Source of the DNA: a virus
IMG/VR virus record: IMGVR_UViG_3300025085_000095
Coordinates: 1 to 34,015 of that record
Length of the DNA: 34,015 bases
Direction: 5' to 3' (one strand)
Below are positions 11,942 through 33,868 of the stretch, piece after piece. The notes below the pieces were generated by a model. The model was not told the origin of the DNA. It ran no database searches and saw nothing but the letters and a program-made list of their open reading frames with translations. A program made the position numbers and the translations under genes. Within the stretch, counting starts at the first letter, position 1. Each line of letters opens with the position of its first letter.

Positions 11942-12083
11942 AGGTTAAATTCCTTTCATCGGCTACCGCGCGCTCCCATACACCGCATGTGCATTTAAAG
12001 CCTTGCAGGCCGTGTGGTTTGGTTTGATAGAAAAAGGGCATCATAGCTGCATTGCAGACGATGCATCGGCGCATGTGACTCAT
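11838..12083 (-). CDS. Small zinc-ribbon protein, 81 aa, overlapping ninG
   Basis: The N-terminal half is a zinc ribbon: MRRCIVCNAAMMPFF, then LQGFKCTCGVWER (CxxC and CxC). The C-terminal half (SEAERRGRRATPKACENEGC) overlaps the first 104 bases of ninG in another frame. The ATG overlaps the ninB stop (ATGA), which supports translation. The unusually long overlap leaves open that the protein ends sooner by mutation in relatives or that only the ribbon matters. Function unknown, probably nucleic-acid binding. Confidence 0.55.
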   Translation of the reverse strand: MSHMRRCIVCNAAMMPFFYQTKPHGLQGFKCTCGVWERAVADERNLTYADFNKAEKTKNRSEAERRGRRATPKACENEGCG

Positions 12084-12466
12084 CGCCCGAACGGCACATC
12101 AATGTCGTGAGTCTCAGCGAGGTGCCTTCCAATGACACGCTGCACGTCGTCTACCTCGTTAGTTAGTAGGTCAGACGATGACTTCCTGCCAAATAACGCC
12201 TCTTGTACTTTATCCCACATAATGAGCTTAACCAGCTCCTTAGTTGGTGGAATCGACATCGTTACGACTTGTTGCATATCCTTTCCCCGGGCATCCAGCT
12301 CTCGTGCGACATGCGCGCAGTAAGCGTAGATGGCTTTGTTTTGTTGACTAGTGCGTGTCTGTGGCTTGATCTGATAGGTCAGCTTTTTATCGACATTAGC
12401 CATGATAAAGTTACATAGCTCACGCGCCTGATGTTCGTTGTTGACTACCCAGTTATGGCTGCTCAC
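12080..12466 (-). CDS. ninB: NinB-family recombination protein
   Basis: Matches the phage NinB family (lambda Orf-like recombination mediator that loads on single-stranded DNA and binds SSB). Signature parts are QTRTSQQNKAIYAYCAHVAR, then IPPTKELVKLIMWDKVQEAL, a basic loop FGRKSSSDLLTNEVDDVQRV and a C-terminus HLAETHDIDVPFGR, which matches the usual GV-VPFP-like end. The start is GTG with a very good GGGGAGAG site 5 bases upstream. It overlaps the 124-aa gene by 14 bases. Together with the annealing and SSB-like proteins upstream it forms a recombination set. Confidence 0.82.
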   Translation of the reverse strand: MSSHNWVVNNEHQARELCNFIMANVDKKLTYQIKPQTRTSQQNKAIYAYCAHVARELDARGKDMQQVVTMSIPPTKELVKLIMWDKVQEALFGRKSSSDLLTNEVDDVQRVIGRHLAETHDIDVPFGR

Positions 12467-12827
12467 GAGTCAGTCTCTCCCCGGTCTTTGTGTAGCACCG
12501 GCCATACTTATTGAGAAAATACTCCTGATGCGTACCTAAGAAGTCGTGATATAGCTCGTCTTCCAGCTCCATATCCCGAGAGCTAATTTTACCACCTTCC
12601 GACTTAAACTTCTGCGTGTAAGGTGAGCCACCACTATCATTAGCACGCTTGAGCCAGTTGACCACAAACCTTGCGCCGTTCACTTTACGCTTACCGGGAT
12701 TAGCGTCAGCCCAGTTAGCTATAGCCGCCAGCTCCTTATGGACATCGATCTTATCGTAGGCTCTCTGCCAGTTGATAATCTCCTCATCGCTTGGCTCGTA
12801 GTACGTACCGTCTTTTAGAATTATCAC
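12453..12827 (-). CDS. Putative replication-linked protein (DnaT/replisome-organiser-like C-terminal domain), 124 aa
   Basis: The segment YEPSDEEIINWQRAYDKIDV, KELAAIANWADANPGKR, VNGARFVVNWLKRANDSGGS has the W-Y-DV-EL-W-NP-KR-FVVNWL order found at the C-terminus of phage replication initiators and DnaT-like proteins. There is no N-terminal DNA-binding wing, so it is a stand-alone version. The C-terminus is charged. It starts at GTG in a GTGA overlap with the previous stop. With no helicase or loader visible here, it could link the phage origin to host DnaB/DnaC; that is inference. Confidence 0.5.
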   Translation of the reverse strand: MIILKDGTYYEPSDEEIINWQRAYDKIDVHKELAAIANWADANPGKRKVNGARFVVNWLKRANDSGGSPYTQKFKSEGGKISSRDMELEDELYHDFLGTHQEYFLNKYGRCYTKTGERLTREQP

Positions 12828-13060
12828 TGGACATACTCCCGGTCTTTATAGAACACCTCTTTCATATCCCAGTGCATCAAATGATCTGGCGGAAAAGCCC
12901 ACTGACACTCCCGGCCATCGTCGTGTATTTCCATGACCCGAAAGAAACTGCCCTTGTAACGACTTTCCATAAACTCAGCCATTTGCTTTGCACTCTCCAA
13001 ACTTGGATACATGCCATCCATCATGCCTGAACGCATATCTACAACTACAAACATATTCAT
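12824..13060 (-). CDS. Hypothetical protein, 78 aa
   Basis: Reads MNMFVVVDMRSGMMDGMYPS, then LESAKQMAEFMESRYKGSFF and a Trp-rich acidic end. The beta-helix-beta start (VVVDM...GMYPSLESAKQMAE) resembles short phage proteins of unknown role. GTG at 13069 and ATG at 13054 are alternative starts; none has an ideal ribosome site. It is the first gene behind the 378-bp non-coding region and has a CUUG-loop hairpin in its leader. Confidence 0.6.
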   Translation of the reverse strand: MNMFVVVDMRSGMMDGMYPSLESAKQMAEFMESRYKGSFFRVMEIHDDGRECQWAFPPDHLMHWDMKEVFYKDREYVQ

Positions 13061-13080
13061 AATCCACACTTACCCTTTTA

Positions 13081-13102
13081 ATGCCAGAGCAAGCTCTGAC
13101 AT
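13081..13102 (-). promoter_or_regulatory. Leader hairpin or operator dyad ahead of the 78-aa gene
   Basis: A nearly perfect 22-bp dyad: the core CAGAGCTTGCTCTG is flanked by ATG on one side and CAT on the other, with one G-U pair. As RNA on the minus strand it forms a 9-10 bp stem closed by a stable C(UU)G loop about 20 bases before the ATG at 13060. It has no U-tract, so it is not a terminator. It may tune translation or bind a regulator as DNA. Confidence 0.55.
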
Positions 13103-13126
13103 GAAGTTAGTTAATAATGACGAGCG

Positions 13127-13192
13127 TTAATTACTGTATCGAATCTTGTCATCTATCCGCTTGATCTGCTCTCGACCAGCGGGGCGCATCAT
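13127..13192 (-). CDS. Possible 21-aa peptide
   Basis: A frame encoding MMRPAGREQIKRIDDKIRYS plus one residue lies in the large non-coding region. GGAG occurs 13 bases upstream, which is somewhat far. The composition (charged, helical) is like a real peptide, but length and spacing make this uncertain. Confidence 0.3.
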   Translation of the reverse strand: MMRPAGREQIKRIDDKIRYSN

Positions 13193-13213
13193 GAAGAGGG
13201 TCAACTCCGCTCC

Positions 13214-13231
13214 GGGGTTCTTCGGTTCCCC
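13214..13231. other. UUCG-capped hairpin in the intergenic region
   Basis: On the plus strand GGGG and CCCC pair around an inner C-G pair closing a TTCG tetraloop, with two T-T mismatches. It has no following T-run on either strand, so it is not an intrinsic terminator. It lies between the operator array and the 78-aa gene. Role unknown. Confidence 0.35.
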
Positions 13232-13281
13232 AGCCTAACGCCCAGTAATCTCTGACTTAAAGAAAAGAAGTGTGTAGAAAG

Positions 13282-13335
13282 GTAACACTTTGTTACTTAT
13301 CGTAACGAGTTGTCACTTGTTGTAACGTGACGTAC
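13282..13335. promoter_or_regulatory. Phased operator array: GTNAC boxes every 10 bp
   Basis: The 5-bp palindrome GTNAC occurs at 13282 (GTAAC), 13292 (GTTAC), 13302 (GTAAC), 13312 (GTCAC) and 13322 (GTAAC), and a degenerate GTAC follows at 13332. The step is exactly 10 bp each time. The first two boxes form a perfect 15-bp inverted repeat (GTAACACTTTGTTAC). Equally it can be read as three 20-bp direct repeats. The last three boxes lie in the -35, spacer and -10 of the plus-strand promoter, so a bound protein would block it. The obvious candidates are the HTH proteins encoded at 13660-13878 and 13448-13663. Iterons of a replication origin are the main alternative. Confidence 0.7.
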
Positions 13336-13338
13336 AAT
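13310..13338 (+). promoter_or_regulatory. Sigma70-type promoter on the plus strand
   Basis: TTGTCA (13310-13315) and TACAAT (13333-13338) are separated by exactly 17 bases; each differs from the consensus at one or two positions. The start point should lie near 13344. It is the only strong promoter I find pointing against the gene direction, and it overlaps the GTNAC array. No ATG-started frame follows before the terminator at 13421. Confidence 0.7.
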
Positions 13339-13343
13339 ACACA

Positions 13344-13447
13344 CGTCTTTGTCTCTTAGCCGAGGTCGAAGATACCACAACATTGACCCCCTTAGTCAAC
13401 ATAGTGGAACTCCCGTGACTCCCCCTCTCTCGAGGGGGTTTCTTTTT
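13344..13447 (+). ncRNA. Predicted ~100-nt plus-strand small RNA (OOP-like)
   Basis: The interval runs from the predicted start of the 13310-13338 promoter to an intrinsic terminator. It contains a hairpin: CCAC (13375-13378) pairs with GTGG (13404-13407), and inside that TTGAC (13383-13387) pairs with GTCAA (13395-13399) around a CCCCTTA loop. The 3' end is the terminator hairpin. There is no plausible start codon in it. Its 3' end touches the 3' end of the winged-helix gene on the other strand, so read-through would be antisense to the two HTH genes, a layout like lambda OOP RNA against cII. Existence is predicted from signals only. Confidence 0.55.
13421..13447 (+). terminator. Intrinsic terminator of the plus-strand RNA
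   Basis: CCCCCTC (13421-13427) pairs with GAGGGGG (13432-13438) around a TCTC loop, followed by TTTCTTTTT. The 7-bp GC-rich stem plus T-tract points to termination on the plus strand only; the minus-strand side has no T-run. Confidence 0.8.
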
Positions 13448-13663
13448 CTAGGATTGCAACGGCATAAACCACTCGGCAATCTGCACTGACTCACCGTATC
13501 TGTTTAACACCATCTTCCGCTCAGAGAAGATTTTGTACCCCTCTGCCCTTAGCTCACTGATACGTGCCGGGCATTCAATAACCCCTAAATCATCCCATGC
13601 ACTTAACCTAGTTAGCCGCTTGCCGCTCTTTAGGTGCGACAGAATCCTTTTCTTCTGACTCAT
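13448..13663 (-). CDS. Winged-helix/HTH_39-like DNA-binding protein, 71 aa
   Basis: Sequence MSQKKRILSHLKSGKRLTRL, then SAWDDLGVIECPARISELRA, EGYKIFSERK and a wing ending IAEWFMPLQS. This is the short phage HTH domain family (HTH_39-like) that resembles excisionase or Gam-like wings: LK-G-LT-A-LG-ARISELR-GY-I. It starts in an ATGA-type overlap with the CI-like gene and ends right at the plus-strand terminator. It may regulate the neighbouring operator array. Exact role unknown. Confidence 0.75.
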   Translation of the reverse strand: MSQKKRILSHLKSGKRLTRLSAWDDLGVIECPARISELRAEGYKIFSERKMVLNRYGESVQIAEWFMPLQS

Positions 13664-13878
13664 AGCTCTTTCTCCCGTAAGAACTCAGTAATTGGCACGC
13701 CGAAGTAATCAGCCAGCATGCCAATCGTGTCCACTGAATCAATCCGCTGTCTCCAGCGGTATACAGTGGCCCTAGAGACGTTTAACTGCGATCCAAGGCG
13801 TGAGCCTGCCTGATCATTAACGTCCGTTAGAAGCTCGCAGAAACGCTCTGCGGCCTGCCTAGAATGTATTGCTTGCAT
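13660..13878 (-). CDS. Cro/CI-like HTH regulator, 72 aa
   Basis: From ATG 13878 the protein reads MQAIHSRQAAERFCELLTDV, then NDQAGSRLGSQLNVSRATVYR and WRQRIDSVDTIGMLADYFGVPITEFL. The LGSQLNVSRATVYRWR helix-turn-helix and the closing DYFGVPITEFL are typical of HTH_3 (Xre/Cro) regulators. I chose this start because it forms TAATG with the HNH stop and has GGGGAGGG 9 bases upstream; the longer form would run into the HNH gene. There is no C-terminal cleavage domain, so it is Cro-sized. It is the best candidate to bind the GTNAC array or the early promoter dyad. Confidence 0.78.
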   Translation of the reverse strand: MQAIHSRQAAERFCELLTDVNDQAGSRLGSQLNVSRATVYRWRQRIDSVDTIGMLADYFGVPITEFLREKEL

Positions 13879-14345
13879 TAATGTAAACCCTCCCCGTTTT
13901 GTTTGTGCCATGCTGAATGACATACAGCGCAAAGCCATCGAACCTCTAACGGCTTACTATAATCGTCATGATGACCGTGGATTGTAGTGATATCGCCACA
14001 ATCCGAGCATTCTGCTGGCTTAACTAGTCTGCCATCTCGAACAGCGTTATTGACTGCGCTGTGGGCTAAATACTTAGCGCGATTCAACGCTCGATATCGT
14101 TTGGTTTGTGCCTGTACAGCCGCAATACGCTTAGGGTCTTTTGACCTTTCACGGTCATACTCTCGAATGCGCTCAACATTATCGAGCCTGTGTTGAGTGT
14201 TATCGGCCTTATTACATTGCTTGCACTTATTGACTCTGCCGTCTTTCATTTGCGGATGCTTGTAAAACGAAGTCAATGGCAACTCAGTGTTGCATTTAAA
14301 GCAGACTTTCGTCTGCTCTTGCTCAAAAAGGAAGGTCGCTGTCAT
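13878..14345 (-). CDS. HNH endonuclease, 155 aa
   Basis: An HNH-type nuclease with two metal sites. The first is VCFKC (C15, C18) with KCKQC (C41, C44). The second is CSDCG (C113, C116), then IHGHHDDYSKPLEVRWLCAV with CH (H125/H126; C139, C142, H143) and a closing AWHK. The HHDDYSKPLEVRWLC-x2-CH block is a common free-standing phage HNH. A basic helical part separates the two. It may be a homing nuclease or act in DNA processing. It overlaps the SSB-like gene by 23 bases. Confidence 0.85.
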   Translation of the reverse strand: MTATFLFEQEQTKVCFKCNTELPLTSFYKHPQMKDGRVNKCKQCNKADNTQHRLDNVERIREYDRERSKDPKRIAAVQAQTKRYRALNRAKYLAHSAVNNAVRDGRLVKPAECSDCGDITTIHGHHDDYSKPLEVRWLCAVCHSAWHKQNGEGLH

Positions 14346-14589
14346 CAGCTAACTCCTTTGGCTGCATGGCTTGACGTGCCTGTTGCATGCCCTGCTTGTG
14401 GACATCGTCCTTTAGCTTGGTTTTGAGGCGCATATAGGTTTTGCCGTTCCTATCCTTAGCCAACCAAGCATCGAGCCAGTGATCAGCGCCACTTGAATCC
14501 ATATAGCTACCTGTATAGTCAGGATGCTTTTCTTCAGTTTTTTTGTCGTTCTTAAACAGAACGCCCCGGTTAGTGTTGTCATACTCCAT
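14323..14589 (-). CDS. Putative single-stranded DNA-binding protein, 88 aa
   Basis: Short beta-rich protein: EYDNTNRGVLFKNDKK, PDYTGSYMDSSGADHWLDAW, LAKDRNGKTYMRLKTKLKDD, then a linker and an acidic tip DDSDLPF. The N-terminal NRGVLFKNDKK...PDYTG block is a known small phage family. The tip mimics the DDDIPF end of bacterial SSB, which recruits recombination and replication partners. It lies between the annealing-like protein and an HNH nuclease, with a perfect AAAGGAG site. Length is well below a full OB-fold SSB, so the assignment stays tentative. Confidence 0.6.
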   Translation of the reverse strand: MEYDNTNRGVLFKNDKKTEEKHPDYTGSYMDSSGADHWLDAWLAKDRNGKTYMRLKTKLKDDVHKQGMQQARQAMQPKELADDSDLPF

Positions 14590-32022: not shown

Positions 32023-32411
32023 AACCAAACTCTCATAGGTGTCTCAGGTGTAACCCCGTGCGTCTCGTCCAGCGCCTCTACAGTCTCACGTACAGCATCT
32101 CCCACGAGACGGATGTTAACGTGCCAGCCTGCCATCGGTGCCATCTCAGGGTACTCGCTACCCTCGTCGTCAGTCAGCATAGTGCCTGTAGGCTCGTGTA
32201 GCGTCCCTACGACATCAATAGCGTAGTCATGGCTATGAGTTACTAGGTATGCGTCACCGTCCTCTACCTGCGTTTCTACGCCTTCCTCGTCCACGTTAGT
32301 TACGTAGTCTTGTCGGTAGAACGCAGACAATACAGTTGGCATCTCTTGCTCAGCCGATAGTCGTAGGTAGAAGTCACGCTTTGGTGCTTCGATGATTAAT
32401 TCTTCTGTCAT
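32019..32411 (-). CDS. Fibre-linked 130-aa family protein, complete copy
   Basis: Begins MTEELIIEAPKRDFYLRLSA and contains EDGDAYLVTHSHDYAIDVVG and MAGWHVNIRL; ends THGVTPETPMRVWL. Closely related to the truncated copy at 1-305. It starts in an ATGA overlap with the 486-aa fibre gene and ends in a GTGA overlap with the adaptor. Acidic, without Cys. Function unknown; the pairing with fibres suggests a partner role. Confidence 0.8.
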   Translation of the reverse strand: MTEELIIEAPKRDFYLRLSAEQEMPTVLSAFYRQDYVTNVDEEGVETQVEDGDAYLVTHSHDYAIDVVGTLHEPTGTMLTDDEGSEYPEMAPMAGWHVNIRLVGDAVRETVEALDETHGVTPETPMRVWL

Positions 32412-33868
32412 GATGTAAGTTCCTGTAGTTTCGCGTTAGATAGACGCTTGGGGAAATATTTGATGGACTTGATGTGGCCGTTGAGATAGTTGTTCCCAAG
32501 GTTAGTTTGCGTACCAATAGCAAGTAAGTCTGCTTTTGCTGGCATATTACCAGACGCGTCTGTTTGAGTTGAAGCGCCAGAAAGACTAGCGGCAAAACTA
32601 TCTTGCTTGATAGCCAAAGCAATTGTTTCTGCTGTATTTGGACTAATTGATCCGCTCCAGCCAGTCAGAGCAACCCCAGAACTTGATGTAATTACAGAAA
32701 CTGTCGTCGTGTTTGTTGGGTTAATAAGAAACCGTGCTAAGTCTGAGCCAGACGTATTTGAAAGGGCAAAAACTCTAGGGTAATCAGAGCCATCAGAACC
32801 ATTGCTGTCAAACTCAACAAACACAGTCCCCTCATTCTGGTTATACCCAAACTGATCTACGTCGATCTTTGCTACGTCTGCTGATCTGCTTGCCGTACTG
32901 CCTGTGGTTTTAATGTAGGACGTAGGGAAGGAGCCAAGCTCAACCTGTGGCAAAGCAATATCTAAATCAATAGTGTCACCAGTTGATAAGACACGCATAT
33001 CTCTAGAGCCAGCACCAAGAGAAGCAACCCTGCCAAGCCGAACCCAATCACCAGAAGCGGGGGCTACTTGAGTTGCGCCTGTAGTGCCTGCTGCTGTGAT
33101 TTTTAAGTTTTGATCTGCCCCAGTTCTTGATCTCACATAAACGGAGCAGTAGTTATCACCTCCAGTCAAGATTGTTACTTGCAGTCTCCCTCCTCCGTTA
33201 AGAGTAGAGCTTTGAATTCGCTTGACAGTAGAAGACGTTCCATAAGGAGCTGGCGTTGTTGAGGCGGTTACAGTTCCGCCGCTTTTATCAACAAAACTAC
33301 ACGACTCACTGTTTGTTATATTGTTAGTCCTCTGCTCCTCAATCAACAGCCCCAACAGGTTCCCATCGGCGTCGTATTCGATTCTAGGGATATTGTCTGG
33401 GTGCGGGAATAACTGGAGCGTACCGTCGGTTTGGTTGAATAGGACTTCCTTGACGGATACGTTGTCAATTGTTCCTGTGTAATCATTAGTAACATTCGCC
33501 CTAATAATAAACTGCGTACCTTCTGCATAAATTACTTTTGACACAGTGCCTGAGCTAACAGCTATATCACCATCATAGCTTGAACCATCATAGACTCTTA
33601 AGGTGCCTGACGTGTTGACATCAAACGTAACTAAATATGTTTTACCAACAGTGTAGACATTGTCTTGTATAACTCTTGCGGGGCCACTTGAGTTATCAGA
33701 AAAATCAGCAACTCCGCCAGAGATAGACACTCTTTGCAAAGTCCAATCACTGTCTGTCGCAAAATCTCCGTTCTCAACAAGCTCCTCACCATAGCTAACC
33801 TTAGCCAGAGCGTAGCCTTCGGATAACCGTGTGAAATTAATTAAGTCTGTCGCTTTAACATTAGCCAT
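32408..33868 (-). CDS. Tail fibre/adhesin paralogue, 486 aa
   Basis: Same layout as the 512-aa gene at 302-1840. N-terminal DLINFTRLSEGYALAKVSYG, ELVENGDFATDSDWTLQRVS module ending VDNVSVKEVLFNQ, hinge PDNIPRIEYDADGNLLGLLI with EEQRTNNITNSE, a differing middle (FVDKSGGTVTASTTPAPYGT and following), then IDVDQFGYNQNEGTVFVEFD and the C-terminal NGHIKSIKYFPKRLSNAKLQ. The two ends are conserved and the middle is not, which is expected of receptor-binding diversification. GGAG stands before the ATG. Confidence 0.75.
   Translation of the reverse strand: MANVKATDLINFTRLSEGYALAKVSYGEELVENGDFATDSDWTLQRVSISGGVADFSDNSSGPARVIQDNVYTVGKTYLVTFDVNTSGTLRVYDGSSYDGDIAVSSGTVSKVIYAEGTQFIIRANVTNDYTGTIDNVSVKEVLFNQTDGTLQLFPHPDNIPRIEYDADGNLLGLLIEEQRTNNITNSESCSFVDKSGGTVTASTTPAPYGTSSTVKRIQSSTLNGGGRLQVTILTGGDNYCSVYVRSRTGADQNLKITAAGTTGATQVAPASGDWVRLGRVASLGAGSRDMRVLSTGDTIDLDIALPQVELGSFPTSYIKTTGSTASRSADVAKIDVDQFGYNQNEGTVFVEFDSNGSDGSDYPRVFALSNTSGSDLARFLINPTNTTTVSVITSSSGVALTGWSGSISPNTAETIALAIKQDSFAASLSGASTQTDASGNMPAKADLLAIGTQTNLGNNYLNGHIKSIKYFPKRLSNAKLQELTS

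Follow-up and report, generated by a model that had tools for sequence, protein, structure and literature searches.

A box array with fixed helical phase overlapping the promoter of a structured small RNA in a conserved phage replication module

The DNA analysed, called here the window, is the IMG/VR virus record IMGVR_UViG_3300025085_000095 from position 1 to 34,015 (34 kb). All the called genes used in the analysis are located on the minus strand. An intergenic gap of 378 bp, between the HTH_39 gene (13448-13663, minus strand) and a gene at 12824-13069 (minus strand), houses an array of short boxes. Two similar tail-fibre-like ORFs (302-1840 and 32408-33868) are found near opposite ends of the record. 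The features of the region are the following:

13660-13878, minus strand: 72-aa Cro/CI-like HTH protein (Pfam scan, fold model)
13448-13663, minus strand: 71-aa winged-helix HTH_39 protein (Pfam PF14090, E=1.6e-13)
13345-13447, plus strand: structured sRNA of ~100 nt, two hairpins and a terminator (fold, covariance model R1, covariation)
13421-13447, plus strand: predicted intrinsic terminator of the sRNA (hairpin 13421-13438)
13310-13338, plus strand: sigma70-like promoter, 10/12 positions, overlapping boxes 4-6 (motif match; -10 kept in relatives)
13282-13336, no strand: 10-bp phased array, five exact GTNAC boxes followed by a degenerate one (sequence, shuffle counts, phase test)
13282-13286, 13292-13296 and 13302-13306: boxes 1-3 (GTAAC, GTTAC, GTAAC)
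13312-13316, 13322-13326 and 13332-13336: boxes 4-6 (GTCAC, GTAAC, degenerate GTACA)
13264-13350, no strand: 13-bp inverted repeat AAAGAAGTGTGTA / TACACACGTCTTT, flanking the array on both sides (sequence)
13081-13256, minus strand: structured, junction-containing leader RNA of ~175 nt upstream of the LD gene (conservation, covariation)
12453-12827, minus strand: 124-aa helicase-loader-like protein, LD (similar to the C-terminal domain found in phage replisome organizers)
12080-12466, minus strand: NinB (Pfam PF05772)

The two small HTH proteins adjoin the array, as a first reading made from the sequence only had described. The LD protein also matched gp42, a 'replisome organizer' of Ruminococcus phage phiRgIBDN1; no relatives of LD were found in the bacterial genomes searched, and a distant BLAST of 12800-14400 against phage records gave no match. 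The module formed by HTH, HTH_39, sRNA, leader RNA, LD and NinB was seen again in 77 IMG/VR contigs, with the recurrent order SSB, Cro/CI-like HTH, HTH_39, sRNA, leader element, optional inserts, LD and NinB. The site between the leader RNA and the LD gene (12824-13069 in the window) takes different small genes in different phages.

The step between the boxes is exactly 10 bp for all six, and coordinates together with a shuffle test confirmed the initial description of five perfect GTNAC boxes and one degenerate box. A three-box pattern with at most 2 mismatches gave 7 matches in the window against 0.91 expected from shuffles, none of 100 shuffles being as high, and the chance expectation for five exact in-phase boxes is about 3e-8 per 34 kb (arithmetic with equal base use). 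The self-match of the array is 0.59 at lag 10 and 0.68 at lag 20, indicating that a 20-bp superperiod is also real. Array-flanking repeats of different sequence were also seen by eye in relatives.

The array covers the -35 to -10 region of a plus-strand promoter, TTGTCA-17-TACAAT, which upholds another claim of the sequence-only reading. Since the intrinsic terminator hairpin is located downstream of this promoter, the product is expected to be an RNA of ~100 nt and no mRNA. Its start is placed 7 nt past the -10 by inference, the match of model R1 itself spanning 13339-13447. The fold of the sRNA has a z-score of -3.6. Model R1, built from ten relatives, recovered the held-out loci L297, L135 and L296 at the corresponding position (E values of 7e-8, 5e-6 and 1e-4, respectively), and a scan of 51 more loci located the sRNA in 49 of these; the weakest E values were 0.1-0.3, yet the matches checked adjoin the conserved leader element. 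Changes on both sides were observed in 15/28 pairs with 13 sequences and in 25/28 pairs with 45 sequences, with 0/500 shuffles as high, in alignments that were fitted to the model and are thus biased toward the structure. The G-U pairs agree with the plus strand. Comparison of the sRNA with Rfam gave nothing up to E=1 and nothing above the gathering score, and weak sub-threshold matches were present only in L387/L389.

The invariant CUCCC of the sRNA (13408-13420) can pair with the ribosome-binding region ACGGGAG of HTH_39 (13670-13690). This pairing is favourable in the window and in four of the relatives and weaker or absent elsewhere; a corresponding change was seen by eye in L135, and the pairing is absent in G010/G011. 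Pairing of the sRNA with the HTH_39 Shine-Dalgarno region might thus be considered as a lead, and only as a lead.

On the other side of the array lies the leader element, which is conserved more than any other part of the region. Two exact patterns taken from it matched 70 and 55 contigs, 77 together. When 39 distinct copies were aligned by sequence only, 15 of 32 pairs showed a compensatory change and 98.5% of the cells were paired, compared to 32-41% for slid controls; the structure was itself derived from this alignment. No Rfam family was found at or above the gathering score. The element includes AUUACUGGGCGU, which we take to be a conserved 16S rRNA stretch. The possibility of a small gene was rejected, the corresponding ORF having an in-frame TGA in L127/L128 and the base pairs covarying. 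As neither RNA matches an Rfam family above its gathering score, both appear to be previously undescribed, and the covariation that supports their predicted structures is strong. These two structured RNAs, as well as the conservation of the phase described below, are solid.

The array was then followed among 76 loci carrying the module. A 10-bp array, with a lag-10 self-match of at least 0.5, was present in 36 of them and absent from 40, counts that overstate the evidence as the sequences are related and not independent. Other lags reached 0.5 in 0-2 loci at lags 5-9 and 11-19, and in at most one at lags 6-9 and 11-16. The best lag was 10 or 20 in 15/15 sequences, the signal being weak for L135 (p=0.07). 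The type of box depends on the lineage, with GTNAC, GGAC or ACRTGT-like boxes at the same place and in the same 10-bp phase. Close relatives keep the GTNAC array, and their varying columns comprise 1/20 box letters compared to 10/25 linker positions (p=0.007). The expectation that relatives would carry GTNAC arrays in 10-bp phase was consequently borne out for the close ones, the others having GGAC or ACRTGT boxes or no array. Conservation of the phase in relatives with both HTH genes, which had been set as a test, held in about half of them, the array being missing in the other half. In array-less relatives that keep HTH, HTH_39, LD and NinB, no consistent 10-bp array was found elsewhere in the 4.5 kb examined; some of them have a single TAACA-N5-TGTTA palindrome, with a half-site spacing equal to that of the array (by eye). 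The -10 is TATACT or TACAAT in 36/36 array-type loci, whereas it is TATAAT in 29/40 array-less loci (uncorrected for relatedness). A non-consensus -10 in all 36 array loci is what one would predict for a promoter under the action of the array protein.

To evaluate which protein might bind the boxes, promoter distances were compared with protein distances in 47 non-redundant loci. The promoter distance tracked the whole HTH protein best (r 0.67), with a partial Mantel r=0.32 (p=0.001) when controlled for LD, NinB and HTH_39. HTH_39, although nearer to the promoter, gave a partial r=0.06 (p=0.08, 47 loci), and LD kept a weak partial correlation of 0.18. An early idea from seven phages, that neither HTH follows the boxes, was weakened by these loci. 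With the same control, the recognition helix of HTH alone gave r=0.04 (p=0.14); L131 has the recognition helix of the window and yet ACRTGT boxes, and L296 and L297 have a common recognition helix with GTNAC and GGAC boxes, respectively. Since the recognition helix alone shows no partial signal, the 72-aa HTH is a plausible, unproven candidate binder. The model of this protein shows a five-helix fold (pLDDT 83.8), the nearest structures being C.BclI, BldD and DdrO (E about 0.02) and the nearest folds those of C proteins and CI-type repressors. As for a Cro/CI-type operator, a small HTH of lambda-repressor fold is thus encoded nearby. HTH_39 was modelled as a winged helix (pLDDT 94.8), and structure comparison found it generic, without a specific relative. 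From this comparative evidence, the 72-aa Cro/CI-like HTH is plausibly the best candidate binder of the array.

We propose that the array is a multi-site operator governing the promoter of an sRNA at the OOP position, a reading to which we give an even chance. A DNA-binding protein, most likely the 72-aa HTH encoded about 330 bp away, would occupy half-sites one helical turn apart, its adjacent subunits sharing one DNA face and masking the -35 to -10 of the promoter. The promoter would yield the ~100-nt structured sRNA, transcribed in opposition to the early operon from a site with the regulator genes on one side and the replication gene on the other. The degree to which the array is occupied would determine sRNA output early in infection and thereby adjust the replication operon, the sign of this regulation being putative, like the target of the sRNA. 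That the 10-bp phase persists while the box sequence changes supports a protein that steps along a single face of the DNA, and the overlap with the promoter supports regulation. Of the two initial suggestions, a regulator polymerising along DNA or three 20-bp iterons, the former is partly supported in this way, with a filament that is hypothetical. Filament-forming DNA binders include BldC and the P2 Cox type.

Several known systems resemble this arrangement. In C-protein and CI/Cro tandem operators (C.BclI, C.AhdI, P22 c2), small HTH dimers bind half-sites about one turn apart, and the HTH model of the window has this fold; the window, however, has a regular row of six half-sites where those operators have two or three dimer sites set apart. 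At lambda pO/OOP, a short terminated RNA runs in the direction opposite to the early operon; it is encoded beside the origin, with regulator genes to one side and the replication gene to the other (PMC3985674). The sRNA of the window is likewise terminated, short, opposite to the early operon and adjoining the replication gene, but it has no Rfam match and does not overlap a neighbouring coding gene, and its promoter lies under a 10-bp box array, with a putative origin role. Plasmid replication control by an antisense RNA plus a repressor (pMV158 RNAII/CopG; ColE1 RNA I) likewise combines, within a single control block, a small RNA from the antisense strand with a DNA-binding protein of small size (PMC4485353); in the window the setting is a phage and the target pairing is putative. 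If the operator reading is right, the loci would offer a natural operator series with fixed spacing and free sequence, a tool for studying the evolution of specificity under a phase constraint. Being conserved in 77 contigs and located at the place of lambda OOP, the two RNAs could take part in replication control across a wide group of phages.

An alternative, possible although we think it rather unlikely, is that the array is the iteron set of a phage origin, with three 20-bp iterons of two GTNAC half-sites each. HTH_39 or the 72-aa HTH would then bind DNA and the 124-aa protein would load the helicase, as parts of a split initiator, and the pO-like promoter within the array would link transcription to initiation, as in lambda. 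Consistent with it, the array is flanked by a DNA-binding gene and by the loader gene, and the lambda gene order cII-oop-pO-ori/O (PMC3985674), followed by nin, is similar to the module. Four GTNAC boxes with a 10-bp step fell inside replication-initiator genes in 53 of the 120 viral matches listed, and an 11-bp-step control gave 5/120 inside such genes against at least 53 (p=3e-14). Among the matches listed, these initiator-gene arrays belong to one cluster of initiator ORFs, about 20 families at 50% identity, whose array-bearing representatives match PHROG replication initiation families; protein repeats fail to explain them, as 10 is no multiple of 3. Array-bearing initiators have a C-terminal domain to which LD is similar (L037, E=6.6e-20; L024, E=5e-9). 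Against it, about half of the relatives with HTH, HTH_39, LD and NinB lack the array, most sister lineages have non-GTNAC boxes, and the window proteins examined included no initiator from the array-bearing families. The iteron option thus drew support from arrays elsewhere, and was weakened for the window because the array is lost or replaced in relatives that keep the module. Like the lambda O iterons and the replisome-organizer GTNAC arrays, the window lineage has repeated boxes (GTNAC, 10 bp) beside a helicase-loader-like domain; unlike these, its array is intergenic over a promoter and outside an initiator gene, window-type arrays are replaced or lost in relatives (36/76), and the initiator domains are unfused. 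The array could serve as operator and origin at once, since at ori-lambda transcription is coupled to initiation (PMC3985674).

The operator reading can be extended to an RNA-centred phage replication switch, in which a one-face filament of the HTH on a fast-evolving array would set the start of replication; we regard this as unlikely. The filament would form between the two undescribed RNAs, the antisense-strand sRNA and the junction-containing leader of the LD gene.

Activation by a CII-type protein, acting on direct repeats at about -40 and -30 of the antisense promoter, is very improbable. The non-GTNAC lineages have a good -10 and no visible -35 (by eye), and group 2 boxes (-39/-29) coincide with what we take to be the CII sites at lambda pRE; however, the Pfam scan gave no Phage_CII match, the top fold matches are of CI/C-protein types, a -35 is present in the window and the boxes also occupy the spacer. 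Binding by a host-encoded protein, which would agree with no phage recognition helix following the box type cleanly, has the slightest chance, given that the whole phage HTH protein co-varies with the promoter and that this analysis did not turn up a host regulator known to use such boxes.

For the phages with arrays inside initiator genes, the case for iterons is strong on comparative grounds. Such 10-bp GTNAC boxes, up to ten in a row, were seen for instance at L032:7255-7349, L085:164-238 and L023:2611-2655, and Escherichia phages Tritos and Evi have GTCAC arrays within the replication gene. Rac ydaU was considered as an established origin carrying an array of this kind, but proved to lack it. 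The 10-bp GTNAC array in initiator genes of about 20 phage families provides a simple computational marker for phage origins and is a possible general origin signature. In the related prophage-like contigs L046, L050, L076 and L090, 4-5 GTNAC boxes were observed near a terminase-like gene, outside any initiator.
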